64,000 nt of DNA from Bacteroidota bacterium (GTDB taxonomy: Bacteria > Bacteroidota > Bacteroidia > JABEUT01). Made by a program: the position numbers and the translations under genes. The notes beneath the pieces are model-generated. The model ran no database searches. It was not told the DNA's origin and saw only the letters and a program-made list of their open reading frames with translations. The DNA is taken from NCBI GenBank assembly GCA_013289475.1, contig JABCZW010000005.1, positions 1 to 64,000 on the forward strand, read 5' to 3'. Shown one piece after another: positions 4,698-62,200 of the stretch. Every line of letters begins with the position of its first letter. The stretch's first letter is position 1.

Positions 4698-5315
4698 ATG
4701 AAAAACACAAATCACAAACCGGTTGAAACACTAAAAAAAAGCATCGATAATGTTTCGCAACGCTCAAAAGAGAGTATTAAAACCTTAGTTGAAACAAGCA
4801 CAAAACAGTTTGATTCGGCTATTGAGGCCAACAAAAAAACATTCGACTCACTCAGCAAAATGCTTTACGACAAAGAAATGGATACGACCATTCTCAGTTC
4901 ATTTAAAAACAACTTCGGCAAAGGCATTAAATTATCGGAAGCCACCATGGATGCCATTATTGATGCCTATACCAGGCGTATGGATTTTAATATTGATTTC
5001 GCAAACAGGTTTATGGAAACATTACGAAGCGAAGACATGAACACCAAAGAAGGAACAAACGCACTTATTGAACTTGTAAAAGAAAACCTTGATAAGTCAA
5101 GTGCCCTGTCGGCAGAAAACATGGATAAAATGGTTGCACTTTATAATGAGCACCTGAATTTCGCCCTGAACTTTAATAAGAAGTTTGCCGATAATATAAA
5201 TGCGCAGGTTGCAGCCATGTTTAAATTGCAAAAGAAATATGTAGATTCTTTTTATAGTTTAGATTCAATGTCGGACTGGTGGAAAACCATTGGCGAAGAA
5301 AAGGTTAGAGCATAA
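4698..5315 (+). CDS. Phasin-like helical protein
   Basis: The 205-residue protein lacks a signal peptide and is predicted almost entirely helical, with a Lys/Ser/Thr-rich N-terminus and repeated amphipathic helices containing FDSAIEANKKTFDSL and NLDKSSALSAENMDKM. This resembles phasin-family proteins that coat polyhydroxyalkanoate granules, although no PHA synthase is in view, so the granule link is inference. The C-terminal half is a paralogue of the partial gene at 2-427. It is followed by a strong terminator at 5334-5366 and looks monocistronic. A TACATTCG box at 4629-4636 is one base off the Bacteroidota -7 consensus and may be its promoter. Confidence 0.65.
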   Translation: MKNTNHKPVETLKKSIDNVSQRSKESIKTLVETSTKQFDSAIEANKKTFDSLSKMLYDKEMDTTILSSFKNNFGKGIKLSEATMDAIIDAYTRRMDFNIDFANRFMETLRSEDMNTKEGTNALIELVKENLDKSSALSAENMDKMVALYNEHLNFALNFNKKFADNINAQVAAMFKLQKKYVDSFYSLDSMSDWWKTIGEEKVRA

Positions 5316-5333
5316 ATAATGAACATATAAAAC

Positions 5334-5366
5334 ACCCCTGCAGTCGAATGGTTGCAGGGGTATTTT
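5334..5366 (+). terminator. Terminator after the phasin-like gene
   Basis: A perfect 9-bp stem (5334-5342 with 5353-5361) is followed by TTTTT. It insulates the phasin-like gene from the biosynthetic operon that begins at 5452. Confidence 0.8.
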
Positions 5367-5427: not shown

Positions 5428-5435
5428 TATATTTG
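5428..5435 (+). promoter_or_regulatory. Candidate -7 box (TATATTTG) of the polyketide operon
   Basis: TATATTTG fits the Bacteroidota -7 consensus TAnnTTTG exactly and lies 16 bases before the ATG at 5452, giving a very short leader. A clear -33 TTTG is not visible. The terminator just upstream makes this the natural start of the five-gene operon. Confidence 0.45.
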
Positions 5436-5451
5436 CAACAAAACAGAGACA

Positions 5452-5994
5452 ATGAAAAACGCAAGAAGCGGGATAATGATTTTAGGATTAATGGTATTGG
5501 CTGCAAATGCATTTGCACAATCTGTCAACTGGAAAGTTGATACGGCCAAAGCAACAATAAAAATTGTAACAAGCGGCCCTTTTGGCGAAGTAGACGGAAG
5601 CCTTTCAGGTTTAATAGCTACAATTAATTTCGATGAAAGCAAACCTGAAACGGGTTCTATTACTGCCAGTGTTGATCCGAAAACTATATCTACCGGTATT
5701 TCATTGCGCAATACCCACCTGCGCGAAAAACAGGAGTTCTTCAATACTTCTACATACCCGCTTATTACTTTCAGGTCAGTTAAAATAAAAAAGAGCGACA
5801 CTGCCGGTTATGTGGTTACAGGGAGCTTAACAATTAAGTCAGCAACCAAACAGATAGATATACCTTTTACATTTACAAAAACAGCTACCGGAGCTTTGCT
5901 TAAAGGGCAATTTACAATAGACGCTGTTAACTATACCGTCGGCACATCAAGCAAAAGCGTTACCATATATCTTTATGTACCTGTGGTTAAGTAA
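5452..5994 (+). CDS. YceI-family lipid/isoprenoid-binding protein, exported
   Basis: The 180-residue protein has a signal peptide (about residues 1-23, ending AFAQS) and a YceI-type lipocalin-like domain: VNWKVDTAKATIKI at the start, GEVDGSLSGLIATINFDES, the TGISLRNTHLREKQEFFNT segment, FPL-like TYPLITFRS, and a C-terminal FTIDAVNYTVGTSS. YceI proteins bind long polyprenyl or lipid molecules in a hydrophobic barrel in the periplasm. It is the first gene of a tightly packed run and is followed after 15 bases by a UbiA-type membrane prenyltransferase gene. A sensible inference is that it binds or shuttles the hydrophobic product or its isoprenoid precursor. The family is also often linked to stress, so coincidence is possible. 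Confidence 0.85.
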   Translation: MKNARSGIMILGLMVLAANAFAQSVNWKVDTAKATIKIVTSGPFGEVDGSLSGLIATINFDESKPETGSITASVDPKTISTGISLRNTHLREKQEFFNTSTYPLITFRSVKIKKSDTAGYVVTGSLTIKSATKQIDIPFTFTKTATGALLKGQFTIDAVNYTVGTSSKSVTIYLYVPVVK

Positions 5995-6009
5995 TTCAAA
6001 TTAAACCAC

Positions 6010-6894
6010 ATGCCGGTTAAATTTTTGCCTGATAAGAACACCATTAAGTTAATGCGGATACCGTTCTCCTATTTTTTAATGCCGGTGTTTTTATTTGCAC
6101 TTAGCCAGGTAAAAAGTATTGATATTAAAAGTGCTATTATAAGCTTCATCGCCCTCCACCTCTTCATATACCCTGCCAGCAATGGATATAACAGCTATAT
6201 GGATAAGGATGAAACCAGCATAGGAGGATTAAAGAATCCACCAAAGCCCACTAAGAATTTATTTTACCTAACGGCACTGTTCGATATAACGGGGCTGGCA
6301 CTTTCATTAATGGTAAGTATTCAGTTTTTCTTTTGCGTACTGGCTTATATGCTGGCATCAAGGGCATATAGCTACAAAGGCATCCGCTTAAAAAAAATGC
6401 CTGTGTTGGGTTTTCTTACCGTTATCTTTTTCCAGGGTGGCTTTACCTTCTGGATGATATATACCGCTATAAGCAGCAACCCTGTTGAATACACCAGTGG
6501 CCTTGTATCTGCCATGCTTGCCTGTTCCTTTCTTATTGCGGGGGTGTACCCGCTTACGCAAGTTTACCAGCACGAGGCCGACCTGGCAAGCGGAGATATT
6601 ACCATTAGCTACAAATTGGGTTATACAGGCACTTTTGTTTTTGCAGGCACTATGTTTACCATAGCCAGCGTGCTGCTTTTTTACTACTTTTATTCTATGC
6701 AACAAACTATGCATTTTGCATTGTTCCAGCTTTTTCTATTCCCTGTAATTGTCTATTTTATATGGTGGTTCCTTAAAGTAATGAAAGATACAACTTATGC
6801 TTCGTTTCAAAATACTATGAACATGAATTTTATAGCTTCTACCTGCATGAATTTTTGTTTCATTACCATATTGCTGTTAAACCTTAAAAAATGA
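6010..6894 (+). CDS. UbiA-family membrane prenyltransferase
   Basis: The 294-residue protein has about eight to nine hydrophobic segments and the two Asp-rich motifs of UbiA enzymes. Motif one is NSYMDKDETSIGG (N61, D65, D67). Motif two is YQHEADLASGD (D191, D196). UbiA enzymes attach a prenyl chain from a prenyl diphosphate to an aromatic acceptor in the membrane, using Mg2+ held by these aspartates. The second position of motif one is Ser instead of the usual Asp. Its stop overlaps the start of the type III polyketide synthase gene (ATGA at 6891-6894), so the aromatic acceptor is plausibly the polyketide made by the next enzyme. Which prenyl donor is used cannot be told. Confidence 0.8.
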   Translation: MPVKFLPDKNTIKLMRIPFSYFLMPVFLFALSQVKSIDIKSAIISFIALHLFIYPASNGYNSYMDKDETSIGGLKNPPKPTKNLFYLTALFDITGLALSLMVSIQFFFCVLAYMLASRAYSYKGIRLKKMPVLGFLTVIFFQGGFTFWMIYTAISSNPVEYTSGLVSAMLACSFLIAGVYPLTQVYQHEADLASGDITISYKLGYTGTFVFAGTMFTIASVLLFYYFYSMQQTMHFALFQLFLFPVIVYFIWWFLKVMKDTTYASFQNTMNMNFIASTCMNFCFITILLLNLKK

Positions 6895-7988
6895 GCGTGA
6901 TAGCAAACATATCTACAGCAGTTCCGGCATATAAGCATAAGCAGGCCGATATAGCTGAATATATGAATGAACTATTTGACTTCCCCGAACAAAAAAAGAG
7001 AAGGCTACGGGCATTATATGCTACCAGTGCTATTGAAACACGGTATTCGGTATTGCCCGATTATTCTTTACCCATAAGCAAAGGCACTTTTTTCTCAAAA
7101 GCAAAGTCTTCTCCCGATGTGGAAGCACGCATGAAGATATATACCGATAATGCGCTGAGCCTTTCGGTGGAAGCAATTAACAAGTGCGTAAAAGGAAAAA
7201 TAAAACTTGCCGATATTACCCATTTGATAACGGTTTCCTGCACAGGCATGTATGCGCCCGGCTTAGATGTTGATATAGTTCAATGGCTTAAGTTGAATGC
7301 AACTATTAACCGCACATCAATAAACTTTATGGGCTGTTATGCTGCTATACATGCGTTAAAACAAGCCAATGCTATATGCAAAAGCAACCCTGATGCAATG
7401 GTGCTTATTGTTTGCATTGAATTGTGCAGCATCCATTTTCAGAAAAAAGACGATATAGATAATATTACATCGAACCTTTTATTTGCCGACGGAGCCAGTG
7501 CTGCCTTAATAGTACCTGATAAAACGGCAGCGAAAAAGAAAATGCACGGTTTTAAAATTTCAGGTTTTTACTCACAGGTTGATTTAAACGGAAAAGCCGA
7601 TATGGTTTGGCAGTTATCGTCAACCGGATTTTTGATGACGCTTAGCAAAGACATTCCGCAACTGATAGAGCAAAGCATTAAAAAACTATTTACCGAAGCT
7701 GCACGCAAATTGAAAATAAAGAAACAGGATATTACCCATTGGGCCATACACCCGGGCGGAAAGAAGATACTGAGCGTAATACAAAAAGAACTCGGCCTTG
7801 ATGCTTCTGATTTAGAAAGCTCGTATAAAACACTAAAGAACTACGGCAATATGTCATCGCCAACCATATTATTTGTACTGAAGGACATGATGGACAATAA
7901 GGTTAAAACAAAAAAGCCTGAAAAAACTTTTTGTGTTGCCTTTGGCCCCGGCCTTACTATGGAATCTGCTATATTGGAGAATGTTTAA
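6891..7988 (+). CDS. Type III polyketide synthase (chalcone/alkylresorcinol synthase-like)
   Basis: The 365-residue protein has the thiolase-fold layout of type III polyketide synthases and the Cys-His-Asn triad: Cys149 in NFMGCYAA, His287 in WAIHPGGKKIL, Asn320 in YGNMSSPT. The GFGPG-like loop reads AFGPGLTMES near the C-terminus. Such enzymes extend an acyl-CoA starter with malonyl-CoA and cyclise the chain into a pyrone, resorcinol or phloroglucinol ring. It overlaps the UbiA gene by 4 bases and the methyltransferase gene by 8, so all are co-translated. By analogy with the Streptomyces srsABC operon (synthase, methyltransferase, flavin hydroxylase), the product may be an alkylresorcinol-derived quinone. 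The ring type is not determined by what I can see. Confidence 0.9.
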   Translation: MSVIANISTAVPAYKHKQADIAEYMNELFDFPEQKKRRLRALYATSAIETRYSVLPDYSLPISKGTFFSKAKSSPDVEARMKIYTDNALSLSVEAINKCVKGKIKLADITHLITVSCTGMYAPGLDVDIVQWLKLNATINRTSINFMGCYAAIHALKQANAICKSNPDAMVLIVCIELCSIHFQKKDDIDNITSNLLFADGASAALIVPDKTAAKKKMHGFKISGFYSQVDLNGKADMVWQLSSTGFLMTLSKDIPQLIEQSIKKLFTEAARKLKIKKQDITHWAIHPGGKKILSVIQKELGLDASDLESSYKTLKNYGNMSSPTILFVLKDMMDNKVKTKKPEKTFCVAFGPGLTMESAILENV

Positions 7989-8682
7989 ACACAGGTCATA
8001 TAAAAAGGAATTATTAGATGAAGCTGTAATTGATAAGGCCGATCTTTACCAAAACCTTAAAGAGCTCGAAATAATTAACAGCAAACTGGGCGGCCACAAA
8101 ATTTCGATTGATGGCGTGGCAGCTGTTGTAACAGACAAATCAAAACAATACAACCTTATTGATATTGGCTGCGGTGGCGGCGACTCACTTAAAGCACTCG
8201 ATATATGGGCCAACAGTAATGACTACCAACTGGGTTTAAATGGCATTGACCTGTTGCCCGATTGCATTGCTTACGCGCAAAAAAATTGCGCCCCCTACCC
8301 CGAAATAACTTTTACCTGTGCCGATTTCAGAACTGTTTTTTCTATGTCAAAGAAAGTTGATATTGTTCATGCATCATTATTTTGCCATCATTTTACTGAA
8401 AAAGAAATCATTGAGTTTATATTGTTATGCAATAATAATGGCGCCATATTTGTTATTAACGACCTGGAAAGAAACCCTATCGCCTATTACAGTATTAAAA
8501 TTCTTACCGGGTTATTCTCTAAATCGGTGATGGTAAAGAATGATGCTCCGCTATCGGTATTGCGCGGATTTAAAAAAACAGAATGGCGCAGTATATTGCA
8601 GCAGGCAGGCATAAAAAAATACACCATTCAAAACAAGTGGGCCTTCAGGCATTTAATTACAATATACCCTAATGAACAATAA
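7981..8682 (+). CDS. Class I SAM-dependent methyltransferase
   Basis: The start was placed at ATG 7981, giving 233 residues; an in-frame start at 7933 would add 16 residues that only read through the polyketide synthase gene. Motif I is LIDIGCGGGDSL (residues 59-70), followed by GIDLLPDCIAYA as motif II, typical of small-molecule methyltransferases. It overlaps the polyketide synthase stop by 8 bases and the flavoprotein start by 11, which places it firmly in the pathway. The likely reaction is O- or C-methylation of the phenolic ring made by the synthase; the position is unknown. Confidence 0.85.
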   Translation: MFKHRSYKKELLDEAVIDKADLYQNLKELEIINSKLGGHKISIDGVAAVVTDKSKQYNLIDIGCGGGDSLKALDIWANSNDYQLGLNGIDLLPDCIAYAQKNCAPYPEITFTCADFRTVFSMSKKVDIVHASLFCHHFTEKEIIEFILLCNNNGAIFVINDLERNPIAYYSIKILTGLFSKSVMVKNDAPLSVLRGFKKTEWRSILQQAGIKKYTIQNKWAFRHLITIYPNEQ

Positions 8683-9796
8683 TGCATTTGATTGTGCCAT
8701 TATTGGCGGAGGGCTGGCAGGGCTTACACTTGCCATTCAGCTTGCCGATATGGGCAGGGCGGTTGTATTATTCGAAAAAGAAAAATACCCTTTTAATAAA
8801 GTATGCGGAGAATATATTTCTATGGAAAGCCATGCATTTCTGCAAAGGCTTGGTATAGATCTTTCAGGCGCACCCTATATTACTGAGCTAAAAGTTTCGG
8901 CACCAAACGGAAATTCAATATTGCGGAAGCTTGACATGGGTGGCTTTGGCATAAGCCGCTACACGTTAGATTCACAATTGGCACAATTGGCAATTAAGAA
9001 AGGTGTTGTATTATTCGAGAACACAAAAGTAAATGATGTAGTGCGGGAAGCAGATTCGTTTACTGTAAAGACCACTACACAAAACTATAGCGCCAAAATT
9101 GTTTGTGGTGCATTCGGTAAGCGCTCATCGGTTGAAAAAAGCTTAGGGCGGGCTAAGCCTCAACATAAGGGAAGAAAAAACTATGTCGCTGTAAAATATC
9201 ATGTAAAGGCAACCCTACCCGCAAACCGTATTGAACTGCACAACTTTGAAAATGGTTATTGCGGCATATCGAAGGTAGATGGCGATAAATATTGCCTCTG
9301 CTATCTTACCGATTCTGAAAACCTTGCAAAGAGCGGCAATAGCATTAAGGCAATGGAACAGAACATAGTAATGAAAAATCCGTTTCTGAAAAAGTATTTC
9401 ACGGAGTCGGAGTTTTTATACCAGGAGCCATTAACTATTTCACAGGTTAGTTTCAGTAAAAAGTCAGCAATAGAAAATGGTGTTATTATGCTGGGAGATG
9501 CTGCCGGTACCATTGCACCTTTATGCGGAAATGGTATGAGCATGGCCATGCACGCTTCTTTTATTGCAGCATCGCTCATTAACAATTTTATTAACGGCAC
9601 TATAAGCCGGGAAGAGTTGTACACACTTTACGAAAAACAGTGGAACAAAAATTTTGCACAACGTATAAAAACCGGGGCAAGCCTACAGCAACTATTCGGG
9701 AAAAATTATTTAACCAATATCTCTATCGGTATGCTAAAAGTCCTTCCGCTATTAGCAGATAAGTTAATAAGCATGACACACGGAGAAGTGTTTTAA
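8672..9796 (+). CDS. FAD-dependent oxidoreductase/aromatic hydroxylase of the polyketide operon
   Basis: The 374-residue protein carries the dinucleotide motif IIGGGLAGLTLAIQLA (residues 10-25), an acidic strand end (LFEKEKYPFNKVCGE, geranylgeranyl-reductase-like start) and the second FAD motif MLGDAAGTIAPLCGNGMS (residues 273-290). This is the p-hydroxybenzoate-hydroxylase/geranylgeranyl-reductase superfamily. In this setting it could hydroxylate the phenolic ring to a hydroquinone, or reduce double bonds of a prenyl tail; the sequence does not decide between these. It is the last gene of the operon and its stop overlaps by 4 bases the stop of the convergent gene on the minus strand. Confidence 0.85.
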   Translation: MNNNAFDCAIIGGGLAGLTLAIQLADMGRAVVLFEKEKYPFNKVCGEYISMESHAFLQRLGIDLSGAPYITELKVSAPNGNSILRKLDMGGFGISRYTLDSQLAQLAIKKGVVLFENTKVNDVVREADSFTVKTTTQNYSAKIVCGAFGKRSSVEKSLGRAKPQHKGRKNYVAVKYHVKATLPANRIELHNFENGYCGISKVDGDKYCLCYLTDSENLAKSGNSIKAMEQNIVMKNPFLKKYFTESEFLYQEPLTISQVSFSKKSAIENGVIMLGDAAGTIAPLCGNGMSMAMHASFIAASLINNFINGTISREELYTLYEKQWNKNFAQRIKTGASLQQLFGKNYLTNISIGMLKVLPLLADKLISMTHGEVF

Positions 9797-35658: not shown

Positions 35659-37542
35659 ATGAAAAAATATTTACTCCTCTTTGTTTGCAGCTTACCACTT
35701 TGGCTAAATGCACAGCTTACTGCTACACTCACTATTAACACCAACAAGGAGCGCCAGGCTATAAGCCCATATATATACAGTACCAACGGGCAAAGCAATG
35801 ACAGGCCCGAAAATATTACCGGCCGCCGCTTAGGTGGTAACCGCATGACTTCATACAACTGGGAAGACAATTTCTCGAACGGTGGTAATGATTATATAAA
35901 TGATAACGACAACTACTTACCATGGAACGCCGGTTTACCATCTGGCCAATATTTAACACCCAATATTGTAAACTCTGCTTTTCATGATACTTCATTGGTT
36001 ATGAATTGCAGTTCGCTTATTACATTGCCTATGGCCGGTTATGTGGCGCGCGATGGCAACGGAGTGGTGAGCAGTGCACAACAGGCTCCATCTCCGCGCT
36101 GGAGACAGGTAGTAAACAAAAAAGGCTCTGCTTTTTCTTTTAAGCCCGATACTGCCGATGGTTTTATTTATGTTGATGAATGCATGAACAACCTTATTAC
36201 ACAGTTTGGTAAATCATACACTGCTAAAGGCATTAAGAATTACGAAATGGATAATGAATGGTCGATATGGAACGGCTCGGACCCATTGATGCACCCTAAC
36301 CAGCCTACCATAGCAGAGGCCATAAGCAAATCAACCTCACTGGCTGCAACTATTAAACGCATGGACTCTGTTGCCTATGTTTTCGGCCCGGTAGATTATG
36401 GTTATAACTCCTACCTCACTTTCCAAAATGCAACCGACTGGAGCAGTTATTCATCATACAGCAATTTCGCTTATGCCTATTTGCATTTTATGAAGCATGC
36501 TTCCGATTCTATCGGGCACCGTTTGTTAGATGTTTATGATATACATTATTATTCATCGGCACAAGGGTTAGATAATAGCAGCACGCTTGAAGTAGTTGAT
36601 GGTGGCAATAACGATAAGGGCGTTGCCATAGCACGTATGGAAGCTCCACGCACCTTATGGGATTCAACGTATGTCGAAAATAGTTGGATAGGCCAGTATT
36701 ATAGCCCTGTTGCATACATACCCGCAGTTCAATATGGTATAAACAAATATTACCCCGGCACAAAAATTGCCTTTACTGAATACAGCTTCGGAGGAGAAAA
36801 TGATATTTCGGGTGGCATTGCTTTGGCAGATATGCTTGGTATTTCAGGCCGCTATGGTATTTACTGGTGTTCGGTATGGGGGCCTGTTAACCAATACTGG
36901 GGCTCAGGGTTTAAAATATTCAGGAACTATAACGGAAAGAAAGGAAGTTTTGGCGATTGGCACGTATATGGCAACACCAACAACTGGCGTACGTCATCGG
37001 TGTATGCTTCATTGCAAAGTACCGATACGGCTATGATGAACATTGTTGTAATGAACAAGGATTATGATTCTACTTTAAAAGCAACCGTTAACATTACCGC
37101 TAATACCAAATTCAACAAAGCCGATATCTATGCCCTCACCAAAACTGATACGCTTATTCATCATATTGGCAGCATTACCATTACAGGTAACAAGTTTACA
37201 TATACTCTCCCTACCCAAACTGTTTACCACTTTATACTAACAGACACAACTTCGGTAACCGGGTTCAACATTATAAACAATGACGATGGCATTGCTATTT
37301 ATCCGAATCCAAGTAACAACGGTGTATTCACCGTTCAAATTACGAATTACGAATTAGGAATTACGAATACCATTGAAGTTTATAATATGCTGGGAGAAAA
37401 AGTTTATTCTACCCCATTTACAATTTACAACTCACCATTTACAATTAATTTAAACAATCAGCCAAACGGCGTTTACTTTATCAGAATACTGAATAAAGAC
37501 AACTCTTTGATAAGCCAAAAAAAGATCATTAAAGTTCAATAA
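35659..37542 (+). CDS. T9SS-secreted GH44 glycoside hydrolase (endo-beta-glucanase/xyloglucanase type)
   Basis: The 627-residue protein has a signal peptide (about residues 1-19, LNAQ end). It then has a GH44-type TIM barrel, with ISPYIYSTNGQSNDRP at the start and MDNEWSIWNGSDPL containing the acid/base Glu200. Further on, TEYSFGGENDISGG carries the nucleophile-type Glu374. GH44 enzymes hydrolyse beta-1,4-glucan, xyloglucan or related polymers with retention. The C-terminal sorting domain (IYPNPSNNGVFTVQI ... VYFIRI ... KKIIKVQ) directs export through the T9SS. Two segments of it are repeat-derived (FTIYNSPFTINL and NYELGITN). It is followed by a TPR protein gene 21 bases downstream. Confidence 0.85.
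   Translation: MKKYLLLFVCSLPLWLNAQLTATLTINTNKERQAISPYIYSTNGQSNDRPENITGRRLGGNRMTSYNWEDNFSNGGNDYINDNDNYLPWNAGLPSGQYLTPNIVNSAFHDTSLVMNCSSLITLPMAGYVARDGNGVVSSAQQAPSPRWRQVVNKKGSAFSFKPDTADGFIYVDECMNNLITQFGKSYTAKGIKNYEMDNEWSIWNGSDPLMHPNQPTIAEAISKSTSLAATIKRMDSVAYVFGPVDYGYNSYLTFQNATDWSSYSSYSNFAYAYLHFMKHASDSIGHRLLDVYDIHYYSSAQGLDNSSTLEVVDGGNNDKGVAIARMEAPRTLWDSTYVENSWIGQYYSPVAYIPAVQYGINKYYPGTKIAFTEYSFGGENDISGGIALADMLGISGRYGIYWCSVWGPVNQYWGSGFKIFRNYNGKKGSFGDWHVYGNTNNWRTSSVYASLQSTDTAMMNIVVMNKDYDSTLKATVNITANTKFNKADIYALTKTDTLIHHIGSITITGNKFTYTLPTQTVYHFILTDTTSVTGFNIINNDDGIAIYPNPSNNGVFTVQITNYELGITNTIEVYNMLGEKVYSTPFTIYNSPFTINLNNQPNGVYFIRILNKDNSLISQKKIIKVQ
37336..37370 (+). repeat. Tandem GAATTACG-type repeat in a T9SS sorting domain
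   Basis: Four GAATTACG/GAATTAGG words in tandem encode ITNYELGITNT between the first two strands of the GH44 sorting domain. It is a different tract from the one at 37414-37451 and lies in another loop. Confidence 0.55.
37414..37451 (+). repeat. Tandem CAATTTACAACTC-type repeat in the same sorting domain
   Basis: CCATTTACAATT words recur and encode FTIYNSPFTINL in the loop after VYS. The protein position is the same as in 10324-10363 and 28420-28453. Confidence 0.55.
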
Positions 37543-52269: not shown

Positions 52270-55200
52270 TTAGTTCCTGATCAACTGCACATAACCATTC
52301 TGGTTGAATGGCTTACCTTTATAATCGGTTGCTCTGATAATATAATAGTAATCACCATCCGATTCCTGAACACCTGTAGTGCTTCTTCCGTCCCAATCAA
52401 TATCAGGAGAATTAGAAATAAACACTCTTTCTCCCCAACGGTTAAATATCTCTATGCTGAATGTCTTTAATCCTGCTGCGCTTACATGGAACCCGTCGTT
52501 CATACCATCACCATTGGGTGTAAATACATTGGGTACAAACAGGCCCTCGGTAACATAAACGGTATCACGGGAAGTATCTGAGCATCCCAAAGCATTCGAT
52601 ACAACCAGTGTTACCAGGTAATTACCCTGTTCGAGGTATTGATAAAAAGGAAACGCATTAGTTGAATTGCCGCCATCACCAAATGTCCAGTACCACGATG
52701 TGGCATTTTTACTGCTATCAACAAACGCTACATACTGCCCACCCAATACACTATCAGGAGTTGGGTAAAATATAGCTTTAGGAGAAGGGAATACAATTAC
52801 AGGTATGCTGCCCGTAGCAATACTTCCGCAACCATCGGTTACCTGGCAACTATAAGTAGTCGAGCTTGCAGGGTTCACCACGTAAGGTCCGGGACCACTG
52901 CCCAATGAAGGTATCCAACTATAAGCATATCCCTGTTTACCGCCACTTGCACTTACACTAACTGAAGCAATCCTTCCTGCACATATTGTATCGGGGGTAG
53001 CAATAACCACAAGTGGTTGATAGAGATAGATGGTTTGTTTTGCACTGTCAGAACATGTTCCGTTTGAACCCACTACGGTATATACAACAGGACTGGTTGT
53101 AGGGCTAACAGTAACTGATGCCCCATTGGTTGAGCTCAGGCCAGTTGCAGGAGACCATGCATAAGTCGTAGCACCATTGCCAGTCATAATAACCGTTTGG
53201 CCGGGGCAAAGCGTATCGCCACCCGATAAATTAATACTTACCGAAGGGCTTGAATTAACATGTATTGTTACCTGCGCTGTACTTGAACAGCCAGTGGCAC
53301 TGGTTCCGGTTACGGTATAAGTTTGAGTAGATGGCGGATTAGCAACCACTACTGCACCTGTTGATGGGGTAAGGCCGGTTGCAGGAAGCCACGTATAGGT
53401 GCTTGCTCCGCTGGCTGTTATAGTAGCTGAATTGCCTGTACATAAATTGGTATCAGTTGCACTGACACTTACCACCGGTAAAGAGTTAACGGTTACAATA
53501 ACTTTTATGGTATCGGTACAGCCTGCAACTGAAGCGCCCACCAGTGTATAGGTTGTTGTTGTTGCAGGAATCGCAGTTACCGAAGAACCGGTAGTTGCAC
53601 TGAGGCCCGTAGAAGGGAACCATGTGTAGCTTGCACCGCCCGATGCATTAATAACAGTAGAATCGCCGGTACAAAGTGCAGGCTTAACAGGAGTGCCGGT
53701 TACATTTATATTGCCCACTGTTACAGTTACCATTGATATTGAACTGCAACCACCGGTTAAGCCACTTACGGTATATGTCGTAGTACTGCCTGGCGAAGCA
53801 TTCGGGTTCGGGCAAGAAGTGCATGATAAACCTGTCGTGGGTGTCCATGAATAAGTAGTTGCACCACCAGCTGATAGCGCAATAGAATCGCCTGCACATA
53901 ATAAAGGGCTTATTGGTGAAATGGATACTGTTGGTGTTGGATTTACAGTAATGTTTACTGTATTACTATCAGCACAACCTCCACCCGATGAACCCACAAC
54001 AGTATATGTAACACTGGTTGTTGGAGTTGCTGTTACTGAGGTGCCTGTAGTTGCGCTTAATCCGGTAGCAGGTTTCCACACATAGGTCACAGCTCCGCTT
54101 GCAGTAAGTGTTGATGAATTACCTGAACAAATTGTTGTACTACTCGCATTTACTGTTACTGTTAACGTACCCACACTTATTGAAACAGATGTATTCGAAA
54201 TACAACCATTTATATCAGTTCCGGTAACACTATAGGTAGATGTTCCGGCTGGTTTTGCTGTTACGTTTGCGCCGGTTGTACTGCTTAAACCTGTTGATGG
54301 CGACCAAACGTAAGTAGCGCCGCCACCGGCAGCAAGCATAATTGAATCACCACTGCATATGGCAGGTGTGGGAGGCGTAACAGTTATAACCGGCAATGGG
54401 TTTACAGTTACGGTTGTTGTTATAGTATCGTTACATCCGCCTGCGCTTTTGCCTATTACAGTGTAAGTAGACGTTGCGCCCGGGAATGCGGTAGTGGCAC
54501 TTCCGGCAGTATTAGTTAAGCCTGTTGAAGGAGACCATGTGTAGCTTGCTGCACCATTGGCAGTAAGCACAACCGAGTCGCCTTTGCAGACCGCAGGTAT
54601 TGGCGGCGTTACCGTAACATTTGGTTTAGGTAATACGGTTATAACGACACTATCCTTTGCAGGGCAGCCGCCTACTCCTTTAGCATTTACTGTATATGTT
54701 GCAGTAATTGAAGGATTGGCAATTACTATTGCCCCTATAGTTGTATTCAATCCCGTGCCTGGTGCCCATGTATACGTCGCTCCCCCACTTGCGTTGAGTT
54801 GCACCGTATCGCCCTGGCAAATGGTTGATTTAGCCAGGCTTATACTTATTACAGGTTGAGGATAAACTGTAATCACCATTGTTGCAATAGAACTACATCC
54901 GCCGGCAGAATTTCCCGTAACGGTATATGTTGTTGTAACAGCAGGTGACGCAATTACATGAACACCAGTTGTTACATTCAGCCCTGCCGAAGGGCTCCAT
55001 GTGTAACTTGTGGCTCCACTGGCAACCATTCCCATTGTATCAGTTGGGCATATAGATGAAGATATACCTGTAATTGATATGGACACCGTCGGTGTTGGGT
55101 TAACCACAAGTGTTACATTGGCAGAATCGGTACAAGCACCGCTGGCTCCGTTAACAGTATATGTTACAGTAGTACCGGGCAAAGCTGTTGGGTTAGGGCA

Positions 55201-58200
55201 ATTGGTACAGCTTAACCCCGTGCCGGGTTTCCAGGTATAAGTTGCTGCACCCGATGCATTTAGTATTATACTATCGCCCGAACATATGCTTGGCGTACCG
55301 GGCGTTACTGATACATTTAATGTAGAAGCTACTTTAACAACAACCGTTTGCGGTGCACTTGGGCAACCTGCGGCCGAAGTACCTGTTACTGTATAAGTAG
55401 CAGTAATGGTTGGCGTAGCATTAACTGTGGCTCCGGTTGTTGCACTCAAATCGGTTGCCGGAGACCATGTATACGTAGTTGCACCTATGACAGTAAGGTT
55501 AACATTGCCACCGGGACATATTGTAGGTGCCAAAGGCGATATACTGATAGTTGGCGTAGGGTTTACCGTTACTATAACCGTTTGCGGTGTGCTCGGGCAA
55601 CCTGCAGATGTACCTGTTACTGTATAAGTAGTTGTGCCACCGGGATTCACAGTTATAGCTGACGTAGTTGCACCTGTGTTCCATAAATATGTTGTTGCAC
55701 CATTGGCAGTTAATGTGCTTGAACTACCCGAACAAATAGTTGGAGGCAAAGCCGACGCTGTTACAGTTGGTGTTGGATTTACTGTTACCACAATGGTCTT
55801 GGGCGCACTTGGGCAACCTGTTGTAGTTCCGGTTACGGTATAGGTAGTTGTTACACCCGGGTTTACAAGTATACTCGATGTGGTTGCACCCGTACTCCAC
55901 GAATAAGTCGTTCCGCCACTGGCGGTAATTGTTGTTGAATTACCCGAACATATTGTTGGCGGAGCCGATGTTGTAACTGTTGGTGTAGGGTTTACAGTAA
56001 CCACTACCATTTGCGGTGCACTGGTACAAGCTCCCGTACTTCCTGTTACAGTATAAGTAGTGGTTACAGGCGGGCTTGCTGTTACACTTGCACCCGTAGT
56101 GGCACTAAGATTTGCATTTGGCGACCAATTATATGTAGTTGCTCCGCTTGCATTTAATGATGTTGAGTTACCTGAACAAATAGTAGGCGAAGAAGCCGAT
56201 GCACTGATTGTTGGTGTTGGGTTTACTGTTACTACTACAGGAACAGTATCCTTACACCCTGATCCGTTTTTACCTACAACAGAATAAGTTTGAGTTACGC
56301 CGGGGTTTGCATTTACAGTAGCGCCTGTTGTAGCACTAAGCCCTCCGCCGGGTGCCCATGTATACGATATTCCCCCGCTGGCAGTCAATGAAGTTGAATT
56401 GCCTGAACATATGGTTGCCGACGAAGGGGTAACGGTAACTGAAGGAACAGGGTTAACCGTTATCTGCTGTGAGGCATTTCCCGTGCAGCCTCCCGCAGCG
56501 GTTCCTGTTACAGTATATGTTTGTGTTGTACCTGGCTTTGCAATAACATATGCACCGGTAGTAATATTCAAGCCTGTTGAAGGGCTCCAGGTGTATGTAG
56601 TAGCGCCACTGGCTATCATTCCAATAGTATCACCCGCGCATATTGTAGGCGATATTCCGGTAAGCGCAATTGAAACAGTGGGTGTAGTATTTACAGTTAC
56701 CACCACAGTTTGTGGTGCACTCGGGCAAGCTAGTGTTGTTCCTGTTACAGTATACGTTATAGTACTCCCAGGATTTGCCGTTACCGGAGAGCCTGTAGTA
56801 GCGCTCAAGTTTGTATTCGGCGACCAGGTATATGATGCTGCACCACTGGCTGTTAATGTGGTGGAATTGCCGGAACATATTGCAGGCGGTGCTGCTGAAG
56901 CTATTACAGTGGGCGTTGCATTAACTGTTACAATAACCGTTTGTGCAGCACTTGTGCAGCCTGTTGTTGTTCCGGTTACTGTATAGGTTATAGTGCTGCC
57001 CGGACTCGCCGTTACACTCGCACCGGTAGTAGCGCTAAGGTTGGTATTTGGTGACCAGTTATAGGTTGTGGCTCCGCTTGCATTTAAAGAAGTTGAATTA
57101 CCGGAACAAATGGTTGGCGATGCTGCTGAGGCCGATATAGTTGGTGTTGGATTTACGTTTACAACAACAGTTTGCGGTGCACTCGGGCACCCGAGTGTTG
57201 TTCCGGTTACTGTATAAGTTGTTGTTGAATTAGGGCTGGCAGTTACACTTACCCCGGTTGTAGCACTCAGGTTGGTATTGGGTGACCAGGTATATGTTGC
57301 TGCCCCACTTGAACTCAAGGTTGTGGAAGTACCCGAACAAATAGTTGGCGGTACTGCTGATGCAGTTACAGTGGGAGTTGTATTTACTGTTACAGAAACA
57401 GTAAAGGGCGGACTTGTACATCCTGCTGTAGTTCCGGTTATTGTATAGGTAATATTGGCAGTAGGGCTGGCGGTTATGCTTGCACCTGTAGTTGCGCTTA
57501 ATGCAGTTCCGGGCGACCAAGCATAGGTAGTTGCACCGCTGGCATTCAACGTAGTGGAATTGCCTGAACATATAGTTGGCGAAGATGCTGATGCAGACAC
57601 TGTAGGTGTTGTGTTTACAGTAATTACAAGAGTTTGTGGTGCGCTGGTACAGCCTGCCGTCGTTCCGGTTACTGTATATGTAATAGTAGAAGAAGGAGTT
57701 GCTGTTACACCGGCACCGGTTGTAGCACTTAAATTAGTATTAGGTGACCAGGTGTATGATGTTGCACCTATTGCATTTAATCCATCAGAATTACCCGAAC
57801 ATATTGCCGGAGACGTAGACGATGCAGTAATGGATGGCGTTGGATTAACCGTTACAACTACTGTTTGCGGTGCGCTGGTACACCCACCTGCATCACCCGT
57901 AACTGTATAAGTAATAGTTGAAGATGGATTAGCTGTTACACTTGAGCCTGTGGTAGCACTTAGATTAGTATTAGGAGACCAGGTATATGTGGTTGCTCCA
58001 CTTGCATTTAAAGATGTTGAGTTGCTCGAACAAATTGTGGGCGATGCAGCCGAAGCACTTACCGTAGGAGTAGCATTAACAGTAACAACAACTGTTTGCG
58101 TGGCATTGCAACCACCGGGGAATGCACCGGTTATAGTATAGGTGGTACTGGCAGCAGGGCTTGCAGTAACCGAAGAGCCTGTAGTTGCGCTTAATCCGGT

Positions 58201-59052
58201 ACCGGGTGCCCATGTATAACTTGTTGCACCGCCACTTGCTGTAAGCGTAGTTGAATTACCTGAACAAATAGTTGGAGAAGAACTTAATATGGACACAGTA
58301 TTAACGGTAACCGATACATTATCTATGGCCATGTGCGGATCGTTGTGGTCATTATTGGGGTCTGTCCAGCGCAGCATTATCTCCTGGCCGGGCAGTATGG
58401 GTGTGCCGCTTAAATCAATACAAGTTGAATTATTTCCGGTCATGTTACAGGGGTCGCCCTGTATTTGCGCACAGCAACCCGAACCATATACATCAGGGCC
58501 TGTAAAATCGAGTGCAGCCACGTGGGTCCACCCGGCAGCAGCGGCAACATTGTTTTCCACTGCTCCCACCTGGTATTCAAAAAAATTGGTATTGATTACG
58601 CCGCCGTCCTCAGATTCAGAAAGCTGGAACCAGTCGAAACTAACTGTAATACTGTTTATAGTTGTACCCGTATTATTCTGCAACTCCAAACCAAAGAAGA
58701 AACAATCGGCGGGTGGTGGTGGGTAATTGCATGGTGGAGGACAAAATGTACCGCTTGTTACCTTTGAATCAGAAGGACGCGTTCCAAGTTTTATATCATT
58801 ATTGCCATTGCACATATAGGTATAAATACCGCCCGTATTTGTTGGCGCAGCAGCCGTTATATTTACCGTATTATTTACAAAAACACTTGTGGGATATATA
58901 TACCATCCGGTGTATGTCGAATTATCTGTCCACGAAGGAATATTAGCAGTTCCAAAATCCTGGGTATAAACACCTGCAGAAAATGTTGCCTGGGCAAACA
59001 GATTGTTGCCAAGCAAAATAATACATATTATAGTGTATAAATATCTCTTCAC
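52270..59052 (-). CDS. Giant Ig-like repeat adhesin with gliding-motility C-terminal domain (T9SS type B)
   Basis: The 2260-residue protein has a signal peptide (residues 1-21, LFAQ) and an N-terminal jelly-roll-like module (to about residue 250). About 23 Ig-like repeats of roughly 75-80 residues follow, built on SPTICSGNSTSLNASGATTY, TWSPNTNLSATTG and ITYTVTGTTAGC. A SprB-like repeat (SVSASGGKQGYAYSWIP), a PKD domain (WYWTFGDGGNSTN) and a terminal gliding-motility-associated domain (FVPNVFTPNGDGMNDGFHV, IFNRWGERVFISN, YVQLIRN) complete it. It is probably a surface filament or adhesin exported by the T9SS. Adjacent repeats are near-identical in DNA, which favours recombination. It is followed by a second giant paralogue upstream. 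Confidence 0.9.
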   Translation of the reverse strand: MKRYLYTIICIILLGNNLFAQATFSAGVYTQDFGTANIPSWTDNSTYTGWYIYPTSVFVNNTVNITAAAPTNTGGIYTYMCNGNNDIKLGTRPSDSKVTSGTFCPPPCNYPPPPADCFFFGLELQNNTGTTINSITVSFDWFQLSESEDGGVINTNFFEYQVGAVENNVAAAAGWTHVAALDFTGPDVYGSGCCAQIQGDPCNMTGNNSTCIDLSGTPILPGQEIMLRWTDPNNDHNDPHMAIDNVSVTVNTVSILSSSPTICSGNSTTLTASGGATSYTWAPGTGLSATTGSSVTASPAASTTYTITGAFPGGCNATQTVVVTVNATPTVSASAASPTICSSNSTSLNASGATTYTWSPNTNLSATTGSSVTANPSSTITYTVTGDAGGCTSAPQTVVVTVNPTPSITASSTSPAICSGNSDGLNAIGATSYTWSPNTNLSATTGAGVTATPSSTITYTVTGTTAGCTSAPQTLVITVNTTPTVSASASSPTICSGNSTTLNASGATTYAWSPGTALSATTGASITASPTANITYTITGTTAGCTSPPFTVSVTVNTTPTVTASAVPPTICSGTSTTLSSSGAATYTWSPNTNLSATTGVSVTASPNSTTTYTVTGTTLGCPSAPQTVVVNVNPTPTISASAASPTICSGNSTSLNASGATTYNWSPNTNLSATTGASVTASPGSTITYTVTGTTTGCTSAAQTVIVTVNATPTVIASAAPPAICSGNSTTLTASGAASYTWSPNTNLSATTGSPVTANPGSTITYTVTGTTLACPSAPQTVVVTVNTTPTVSIALTGISPTICAGDTIGMIASGATTYTWSPSTGLNITTGAYVIAKPGTTQTYTVTGTAAGGCTGNASQQITVNPVPSVTVTPSSATICSGNSTSLTASGGISYTWAPGGGLSATTGATVNANPGVTQTYSVVGKNGSGCKDTVPVVVTVNPTPTISASASSPTICSGNSTSLNASGATTYNWSPNANLSATTGASVTASPPVTTTYTVTGSTGACTSAPQMVVVTVNPTPTVTTSAPPTICSGNSTTITASGGTTYSWSTGATTSSILVNPGVTTTYTVTGTTTGCPSAPKTIVVTVNPTPTVTASALPPTICSGSSSTLTANGATTYLWNTGATTSAITVNPGGTTTYTVTGTSAGCPSTPQTVIVTVNPTPTISISPLAPTICPGGNVNLTVIGATTYTWSPATDLSATTGATVNATPTITATYTVTGTSAAGCPSAPQTVVVKVASTLNVSVTPGTPSICSGDSIILNASGAATYTWKPGTGLSCTNCPNPTALPGTTVTYTVNGASGACTDSANVTLVVNPTPTVSISITGISSSICPTDTMGMVASGATSYTWSPSAGLNVTTGVHVIASPAVTTTYTVTGNSAGGCSSIATMVITVYPQPVISISLAKSTICQGDTVQLNASGGATYTWAPGTGLNTTIGAIVIANPSITATYTVNAKGVGGCPAKDSVVITVLPKPNVTVTPPIPAVCKGDSVVLTANGAASYTWSPSTGLTNTAGSATTAFPGATSTYTVIGKSAGGCNDTITTTVTVNPLPVITVTPPTPAICSGDSIMLAAGGGATYVWSPSTGLSSTTGANVTAKPAGTSTYSVTGTDINGCISNTSVSISVGTLTVTVNASSTTICSGNSSTLTASGAVTYVWKPATGLSATTGTSVTATPTTSVTYTVVGSSGGGCADSNTVNITVNPTPTVSISPISPLLCAGDSIALSAGGATTYSWTPTTGLSCTSCPNPNASPGSTTTYTVSGLTGGCSSISMVTVTVGNINVTGTPVKPALCTGDSTVINASGGASYTWFPSTGLSATTGSSVTAIPATTTTYTLVGASVAGCTDTIKVIVTVNSLPVVSVSATDTNLCTGNSATITASGASTYTWLPATGLTPSTGAVVVANPPSTQTYTVTGTSATGCSSTAQVTIHVNSSPSVSINLSGGDTLCPGQTVIMTGNGATTYAWSPATGLSSTNGASVTVSPTTSPVVYTVVGSNGTCSDSAKQTIYLYQPLVVIATPDTICAGRIASVSVSASGGKQGYAYSWIPSLGSGPGPYVVNPASSTTYSCQVTDGCGSIATGSIPVIVFPSPKAIFYPTPDSVLGGQYVAFVDSSKNATSWYWTFGDGGNSTNAFPFYQYLEQGNYLVTLVVSNALGCSDTSRDTVYVTEGLFVPNVFTPNGDGMNDGFHVSAAGLKTFSIEIFNRWGERVFISNSPDIDWDGRSTTGVQESDGDYYYIIRATDYKGKPFNQNGYVQLIRN

Positions 59053-59296: not shown

Positions 59297-62200
59297 TTAG
59301 TTTCTTATCAATTGTACGTAACCGTTTTGGTTGAATGGCTTGCCTTTATAATCAGAAGCCCTTATAATGTAGTAGTAATCACCATCCGATTCCTGAACAC
59401 CCGTCATACTTCTTCCGTCCCAATCAATTTCAGGAGAATCAGCCTGGAACACCTTCTCGCCCCAACGGTTAAATATTTCTATATGATATTCCTTCATACC
59501 ACCCGCTTTAACATGGAACACATCATTTTGTCCATCATTATTAGGAGTAAATACGTTGGGAATAAATATGCCTTCTGTTACATATACTGTATCCGATGCA
59601 GTATCCCAGCAACCAAATCCATTTGATGTTACCAATGTTACCAGGTATTTTCCGGTAGCCAAATACTGGTATAATGGATATACTGTAGTTGAGTTGCCAC
59701 CATCACCAAATGTCCAGTACCACGATGTAGCATTTGTACTGCTATCAACAAACGAAACATATTGTCCGCCCGCAATTGTATCCGGCGTTGGGAAGAATAT
59801 TGACTTAGGTGAAGGCTTGGTGTATACCAACGCTGAGCCTGTTGCTGTGCTTCCGCAACCATCAGTTACTATGCAGGAATAGGTTGTTGTAGTACCCGGA
59901 TTTACTACATAAGGGCCCGAGCCTGTACCAACAGGAGGTGTCCATGCATATGTATAACCCGGATTACCACCTGAAGCTGTAACACTTACAGTAGTATTTC
60001 TGCTGGCGCAAATTGTATCAGTGCTTGAAGTTGCTGTTAATGCAGGATACAAGGTTAATGTTTGGGTTGCACTGTCAGAACATGCTCCGTTTACACCAAC
60101 CACCTTATATGTCATTGGGCTTGTAGGCGGAGTAGCTGAAACCGATGCACCTGTTGTAGTACTTAATCCGGTAGAAGGTGACCAAGTATATACCGCAGCA
60201 CCACTGGCTGTCATAGTAACCGACTGGCCAGGGCATAAAACACTTCCACCCGAAAGCAAAATACTTATTACAGGGCTTGAATTTACTGTTATTGTAATTG
60301 GAGCAGAGCTTGAACAGCCGGCAGCACTTGTACCGGTTACAGTATATGTTACCGTACCTGAAGGTGTTGCAGTTACCACGGCACCTGTTGAAGGCACAAG
60401 ACCCGTTACAGGCAACCATGTATAATTATTTGCACCGCCTGCTGTAATAATAGCCGAGTTACCGGTACATAAACTGGTATCGTTAGCAGAAACCGTTATA
60501 ACAGGTAAAGAGTTTACAGTTATGGCAACATTGGCAGAATCGGCACAACCCAGTGCATCAACACCAACTACTTTGTATGATAATGATGAATCAGGGTTTG
60601 CAGTTACGGAAGAGCCTGTTGTTGCACTTAATCCTACAGCAGGTGTCCATATATAATTGCTGGCGCCCGATGCATTAATACTTGTTCCGGTGCTGCCAAA
60701 GCATATGGAAGGAGAAGATGCAGATGCGGTAACTTTAGGCTGATCGACAGCTATAGTAACCGTTGAACTCGAAGGGCAGCCCAACGATGAAGTTCCTGTA
60801 ACAGTATATGTTTGCGTACTGCCTGCATTGGCATTTACAATTGAATCGGTAGTAGAGCTTAACCCGGTACCAGGGCTCCAACTATATGTGGTAGCGCCAC
60901 TTGCCGTAATTGTTGTTCCGCTTGCACCAAAACATATTGTAGGTGAGCCTGCCATAACTGACAGTGTAGGTGTAGCATTTACTGTAATGGCAACTGTATT
61001 ACTATCCGAACAACCGCCACCTGATGAACCGATTACTGTATAAGTAATACTGGTTACAGGATTCGCAGTTACCGAAGTACCTGTAGTCGCACTTAATCCT
61101 GTACCGGGTTTCCATGTATATGTTACGGCTCCGCTTGCTGTTAATGTTGAAGAGGTACCCGAACATATTGTTGAACTGCTTGCATTTGCAGTTACTGTTA
61201 ATGTACCTACACTAATAGCTACTGAACCAGATGAAGTACATCCGTTGCCATCAGTACCCGTTACGGTATATGTTGATGTGCTTCCGGGAGATGCATTTAC
61301 CGATGTACCCACTGTTGTATTCAATCCTATTGAAGGTGACCACACATATGTTGTGGCGCCAAAGGCAGTAAGTGTAACAGAATCACTCTTACATATAGCT
61401 GGTGTTGGAGGATTAACACTTATAACCGGTAATGGATTTACTTTTACTATTGTAGTTATAGTGTCATTACATCCGCCTGCACTTGTTCCAATTACTGTGT
61501 AGGTTGAAGTAGATCCGGGGAATGCCGTTGTTATATTTCCTGTAGTAACAGTAAGTCCTGTTGAAGGTGACCATACATAATTTGCTGCTCCGTTAGCCGT
61601 AAGCGCAATTGAATCGCCCTTACATACTGCCGGTGTTGGCGGTGTAACTGTAACAACCGGTTTAGGCAAAACGGTTATTATAACGCTGTCCTTTGCCGGG
61701 CAGCCTCCTACTCCTTTTGCACTTACCGTATAGGTTGCAGTTGTTGAAGGATTAGCAATTACTGATGCACCCACTGTAGTATTTAAACCAGTGCCCGGAG
61801 CCCATGTATAAGATGCGCCTCCGCTTGCATTCAGGTAGACAGTATCGCCCGCGCAAATAGTTGGCTTGGTTAAACTTACCGATATTACCGGTTTCGGATA
61901 TACGGTTACTACTTGCGTTGCAGTTGAAGAACAACCGCCTGCATTTGTTCCGGTAAGTGTATAGGTAGTTGTTACAGCAGGGCTCACATTTGTAGTAGCG
62001 CAACTGGTACATGCTACACCTGTGGCAGGTGTCCATGCATACGTTGAAGCTCCGCTACCTATTAATCCAAGGCTATCGCCCGGGCATATAGCAGCCGAAA
62101 TACCCGTAATATTTATATTTACTGTAGGAGTTGGGTTTACTGTTACGGTAACTTTTGCAGAGTCAGAACAGCCTCCGCTGGCACCATATACGGTATAGGT

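Follow-up and report, generated by a model that had tools for sequence, protein, structure and literature searches.

The window analysed here is a 64,000-nucleotide stretch of a Bacteroidota bacterium (contig JABCZW010000005.1) from a genome assembly of 57% completeness. At positions 5428–9796 it carries an operon of five genes, encoding a YceI-family protein, a UbiA-superfamily prenyltransferase, a type III polyketide synthase (PKS), a methyltransferase and a flavin adenine dinucleotide (FAD) enzyme. With a probability of roughly 0.6, the operon encodes a pathway like that of agqABCD from Actinoplanes, leading to a membrane prenylated fatty phenol (an alkylphenol or hydroquinone lipid) that would be methylated and hydroxylated, with a UbiA enzyme of a distinct subfamily. 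The genes, their conservation, the co-occurrence of UbiA and PKS, and the family and fold of the UbiA and FAD enzymes were established directly. The genes are as follows:

5452..5994, + strand: YceI-family protein with a signal-like stretch at the N-terminus, an optional operon member; 180 amino acids (Pfam, YceI structures)
6010..6894, + strand: UbiA-superfamily membrane prenyltransferase of its own subfamily, motifs NSYMDKD and QHEAD; 294 amino acids (Pfam, tree, model with UbiA fold)
6891..7988, + strand: type III polyketide synthase with the triad Cys149-His287-Asn320; among solved structures its closest relatives are PKS18 and a chalcone synthase-like protein (7cb3); 365 amino acids
7981..8682, + strand: class I S-adenosylmethionine-dependent methyltransferase, PRK06202-like, start ATG at 7981; 233 amino acids
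8672..9796, + strand: FAD enzyme of the group A monooxygenase/halogenase/geranylgeranyl-reductase superfamily, probable ring hydroxylase; 374 amino acids

All five open reading frames are intact from ATG to stop. The YceI and UbiA genes are separated by 15 bases, and overlaps of 4 (UbiA/PKS), 8 (PKS/methyltransferase) and 11 bases (methyltransferase/FAD) follow; the genes and spacings listed in the initial annotation of this DNA are exact to the base. The family assignments are supported by both Pfam and NCBIfam. Pfam scores were 92 bits for the YceI domain (cut-off 23.7), 52.5 for UbiA, 98 and 100 for the N- and C-terminal Chal_sti_synt domains, 36 for the methyltransferase and 48 for FAD_binding_3.

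Conservation of the Gene Block and the YceI Partner

A scan of genome contigs yielded 80 loci, from which gene profiles were built. UbiA, methyltransferase and FAD genes stand beside the PKS gene as a complete four-gene block in 56 of the 60 related loci with enough flanking sequence, and hence the arrangement is not due to chance. The conservation of the synthase neighbourhood in related genomes agrees with the initial annotation. In 54 loci the UbiA gene overlaps the PKS gene, by either 8 or 4 bases, and the surroundings of the block change in several lineages. Carriers include Niastella, Flavihumibacter, Longitalea, Pinibacter and Chitinophaga costaii, cultured type strains among them, and many metagenome-assembled genomes.

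Among 393 Bacteroidota genomes, the PKS profile matched 179 and the UbiA profile 63, and all 63 UbiA genomes also possess a type III PKS (hypergeometric value 2e-25, which ignores shared ancestry). In the window's class, 23 genomes have UbiA, and precisely these 23 give a PKS match with an E-value below 1e-100. In six of them the two genes are not linked or lie on separate contigs, and in several they are divergent.

The YceI protein is related to solved YceI proteins. Its gene adjoins the four-gene block in 7 of the 60 loci, in three of which it runs on the other strand, and likewise in the window and in a genome of the same genus (L087, G007). The adjacent YceI genes do not form one clade, and at least four changes are needed on the tree, although a single origin is still compatible with the well-supported branches alone. 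A fixed operon member is thereby ruled out, and YceI looks like an optional partner that was recruited repeatedly. The initial annotation had counted an exported YceI protein as part of the system; its adjacency in the window stands, its constancy does not. YceI may even be a transcription unit of its own, unrelated to the lipid, as its sporadic occurrence, the opposite strand in three loci and the scattered tree positions would allow. This is possible but unlikely: strong YceI matches at those loci are always directly upstream of the block, the gap in the window is only 15 bases, YceI also adjoins the FAD-methyltransferase-PKS operon in two genomes of the Flavobacteriaceae type (family f5, described below), and an isoprenoid-binding gene lies within the ‘Saltatorellus ferox’ operon (PMC10896814). 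At L087, YceI is 64% identical to the YceI of the window and the neighbouring core genes are 40–45% identical. Since the former value is higher, the core genes and YceI may have different histories.

Polyketide Synthase, Methyltransferase and FAD Enzyme

Every reaction given here is inferred, and so are the sequence of steps, the length of the prenyl chain and the function in the cell. The PKS would elongate a fatty acyl thioester, using malonyl-CoA, and close the chain into a phenol of the alkylresorcinol type. The methyltransferase would methylate the ring or a hydroxyl, and the FAD enzyme would hydroxylate the ring to a hydroquinone, which may oxidise to a quinone. The UbiA enzyme would add an isoprenoid chain, giving a membrane meroterpenoid phenolic lipid, and YceI, where present, may act as an exported lipid-binding protein that holds or moves the product.

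The PKS belongs to the chalcone synthase family, and the full catalytic triad noticed in the initial annotation (Cys149, His287 and Asn320) lies within invariant columns of a 21-sequence alignment. PKS genes of the UbiA-carrying Bacteroidia form one clade in the PKS tree (93/84). A separate clade comprises PKS genes without methyltransferase or FAD genes, together with the f5 type. Two of the former adjoin ICMT-family methyltransferase genes (L169:5953-7526 and L170:5489-7074) and represent a third type of locus, resembling the Bacillus bpsAB pair.

The PKS, methyltransferase and FAD genes make up a widespread alkylresorcinol module. Homologous blocks were found on plasmids of Deinococcus, Roseomonas, Paludisphaera and Psychrobacter, with identities of 34–46% for the PKS, 22–29% for the methyltransferase and 21–24% for the FAD enzyme, the weakest being the FAD enzyme of Deinococcus radiodurans. 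The PKS of Psychrobacter urativorans plasmid NZ_CP012711.1 (L095) is 46% identical to that of the window and falls within the UbiA-associated Bacteroidota clade, which suggests transfer between phyla; the methyltransferase and FAD genes of this plasmid are on the strand opposite the PKS gene.

The nearest solved structure, PKS18 (178 bits), is known as a long-chain alpha-pyrone synthase, and resorcinol and pyrone formation are not separable from sequence alone. Hence, the product could be a long-chain alkyl-alpha-pyrone of the PKS18, PKS11 or BpsA type, methylated and otherwise modified, with UbiA prenylating the pyrone or a related enol. This seems improbable, since a FAD ring hydroxylase is more sensible on a phenol, and homologous PKS-methyltransferase-FAD blocks yield alkylresorcinols in planctomycetes and Cyanobium (PMC10896814).

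The methyltransferase is PRK06202-like by NCBIfam. The structure model of the FAD enzyme (predicted local distance difference test score, pLDDT, 89.7) was closest in Foldseek to flavin halogenases and group A monooxygenases. The top matches included the halogenases FasV, PltA and PltM, a geranylgeranyl reductase-like protein, and the aromatic monooxygenases PqsL and 3-hydroxybenzoate 6-hydroxylase. Against the geranylgeranyl reductase family the enzyme scored 116 bits, below the TIGR02032 cut-off of 158.8; GG-red-SF was still the best NCBIfam model. These matches would also suit a halogenase or a prenyl-chain reductase, whose product would be halogenated or carry a reduced prenyl chain (compare the dihydrogeranyl group of agq products). 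We consider this doubtful, given the monooxygenases among the top fold matches. A general role in prenyl reduction is disfavoured, as enzymes of this FAD family are also encoded in operons lacking this UbiA in family f5, taken to be Flavobacteriaceae. In f5 genomes the FAD, methyltransferase and PKS genes are followed by short-chain dehydrogenase/reductase (SDR), FabA-like and ketoacyl-synthase genes. Because FAD and methyltransferase genes occur in these operons without this UbiA, ring hydroxylation is the likelier role of the FAD enzyme, which fits action on the ring and not on the prenyl chain.

A second Bacteroidota type III PKS operon was observed at L162 and L163 (G236 and G208, f5), with the order YceI-FAD-methyltransferase-PKS-SDR-FabA-like-ketoacyl synthase.

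The PKS-Associated UbiA Prenyltransferase

The structure model of the UbiA protein (pLDDT 93.6) has the UbiA fold, and the two metal/diphosphate motifs of the superfamily are present in variant form. Motif 1 reads N61xxxD65xD67, where the canonical form is NxxxDxxxD. In motif 2, Q187xxxD191, Gln replaces the first Asp of the usual DxxxD. Both Asp-rich motifs reported in the initial annotation are thus in position, but altered. The forms common to the PKS-associated proteins are NSYxDKDE and YPxxQxxQxxxD, with small variations.

On the tree, PKS-associated UbiA proteins form their own clade (100/98). Their paralogues within these genomes (MenA, MqnP/UbiA-like, heme O synthase and PRK12872) fall outside it, although the tree has long branches and how the clades are placed relative to one another is uncertain. 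No NCBIfam cut-off of the MenA, MqnP or UbiA respiratory-quinone models was passed. The tree and NCBIfam together rule out MenA, UbiA/MqnP and heme O synthase, and the protein does not cluster with the respiratory-quinone MenA/UbiA enzymes. A phmmer search against sequences of solved structures gave no match up to E = 1, and no relatives were found on plasmids at E 1e-3. The PKS-associated UbiA is a distinct subfamily. A housekeeping prenyltransferase (for menaquinone, heme O or carotenoid elongation) placed beside PKS genes by coincidence is very improbable: some members weakly match PRK06080 (MenA) or PRK12875/PRK13105-type prenyltransferase models, but the same genomes have separate paralogues in the other clades, and in every one of the 63 genomes UbiA is accompanied by the PKS.

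Family f25 has a more distant UbiA, placed as sister to the operon clade, which co-occurs with PKS yet is unlinked to it. This sister subfamily (f25 and f57 genomes, L125–L132) shares the motif signature, and its gene lies near that of a thioredoxin-like (Thioredoxin_9) protein in the one locus checked. Because of the lack of linkage to PKS and the thioredoxin-like neighbour, the f25 protein may differ in role from the operon UbiA.

Operon Surroundings, Described Clusters and Biological Meaning

Two further features were noted in front of the operon:

5428..5435, + strand: TATATTTG, Bacteroidota-type -7 box, 16 bases upstream of the YceI start
5334..5361, + strand: terminator-like stem-loop of 12 pairs with a T tail, between a phasin-like gene and the operon

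The -7 box named in the initial annotation is present, with no TTTG seen by eye at the -33 partner position. A strict -33/-7 pattern search gave no site at the 5′ end of the operon and fewer matches than chance. The stem-loop is suggestive only as a terminator, since three stem-loops were found against 4.8 expected in shuffles. The phasin-like protein directly preceding the operon (4698–5315) has no Pfam family above the cut-off; it is one of two related phasin-like coiled proteins, the other at 128–427, with 55% identity over 94 amino acids. Elsewhere the window encodes a GH44 enzyme bearing a type IX secretion tail (35659–37542) and a pair of giant Ig_7/PKD/CHU_C proteins, one of 2260 amino acids (52270–59052) and one of 1505 (59297–63814).

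The agqABCD cluster of Actinoplanes missouriensis, responsible for alkyl-O-dihydrogeranyl-methoxyhydroquinone, likewise groups a UbiA-like prenyltransferase of the membrane with a type III PKS, a methyltransferase and ring hydroxylation. According to published descriptions, AgqA is accompanied by the UbiA-like O-prenyltransferase AgqD (PMC3227686, PMC10896814, PMC7692728), the Agq prenyltransferase O-prenylates an alkyl-methoxyhydroquinone (PMC3227686), and AgqA products become prenylated and hydroxylated (PMC10896814). Orthologues of agqB-D accompany agqA in Phytohabitans (PMC7692728). The operon in the window has agq-type gene content, with a type III PKS, a methyltransferase, a flavin enzyme and a UbiA-superfamily gene clustered. 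It belongs to another phylum, YceI is absent from the agq descriptions as far as consulted, and the likeness is one of described activities.

Other clusters share parts of the gene set. The srsABC (Streptomyces griseus), hidABC (Cyanobium) and planctomycetal methyltransferase-FAD-PKS operons have the PKS, methyltransferase and FAD module and lead to alkylresorcinols and derived quinones, the latter two being described as alkylresorcinol producers (PMC10896814), but no UbiA gene appears in the published descriptions surveyed. The loseolamycin region of Micromonospora endolithica has UbiA-family and methyltransferase genes near the type III PKS gene losA, with an acyl-CoA dehydrogenase in between and another gene set and order (PMC7587189). 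In the type III PKS operon of ‘S. ferox’, a gene for a lipid/isoprenoid-binding protein precedes the methyltransferase and PKS genes, but the operon contains two methyltransferases and a lipoprotein, with no UbiA or FAD gene described (PMC10896814).

There is thus precedent for the gene combination outside Bacteroidota. The premise that srsABC-type operons never include UbiA or YceI is contradicted by AgqD, by the UbiA gene near losA and by the lipid/isoprenoid-binding gene of ‘S. ferox’, and the suggestion of a perhaps undescribed kind of system was too strong, because agqABCD already combines the four activities. A literature search for UbiA, YceI and type III PKS jointly in Bacteroidetes found nothing, nor was a paper found that describes this gene set in Bacteroidota. 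In the plant cannabinoid route, a type III PKS supplies the alkylresorcinol core, which a UbiA-family membrane enzyme prenylates; with plant enzymes, a separate cyclase and no operon, this route is an analogy only.

The proposed logic of a PKS-derived phenol that is methylated, hydroxylated and prenylated is the best reading, with which the neighbourhood and the UbiA clade agree; the claimed novelty and the constant YceI are lost. Several points weigh against it. The product is a prediction, and the comparison with AgqA-D is one of described activities. The ring could be a pyrone, as the nearest relative in the PDB is a long-chain alpha-pyrone synthase, and the FAD model is as similar to halogenases and reductases as to hydroxylases. 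The noncanonical motifs leave the activity and substrate of UbiA uncertain, its gene is unlinked in roughly one in four strong-UbiA genomes, and the co-occurrence test takes no account of shared ancestry. Most likely, judging by analogy of activities, this is a conserved Bacteroidota pathway resembling agqABCD, a variant rather than a new kind of pathway. Assignment to agq is premature, and the operon should not be filed there.

Polyketide quinones of mycobacteria are reported as electron carriers (cited in PMC10896814), and so a redox role is worth considering here. A bolder and rather unlikely proposal is that the UbiA enzymes, as a new subfamily with altered metal motifs, C- or O-prenylate an alkylresorcinol; the result would be an undescribed meroterpenoid quinone of Bacteroidota membranes, which YceI would handle in the periplasm and which would serve the cell as redox carrier or as a lipid of the envelope. 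Among Bacteroidota, type III PKS clusters are frequent (179 of the 393 genomes studied here) and make up 10.7% of Flavobacteriaceae clusters (PMC10734526). As cultured type strains carry the gene set, the product is open to direct search, and a UbiA subfamily whose presence follows that of the PKS, linked or not, offers a clean target in the search for a new aromatic prenyltransferase.

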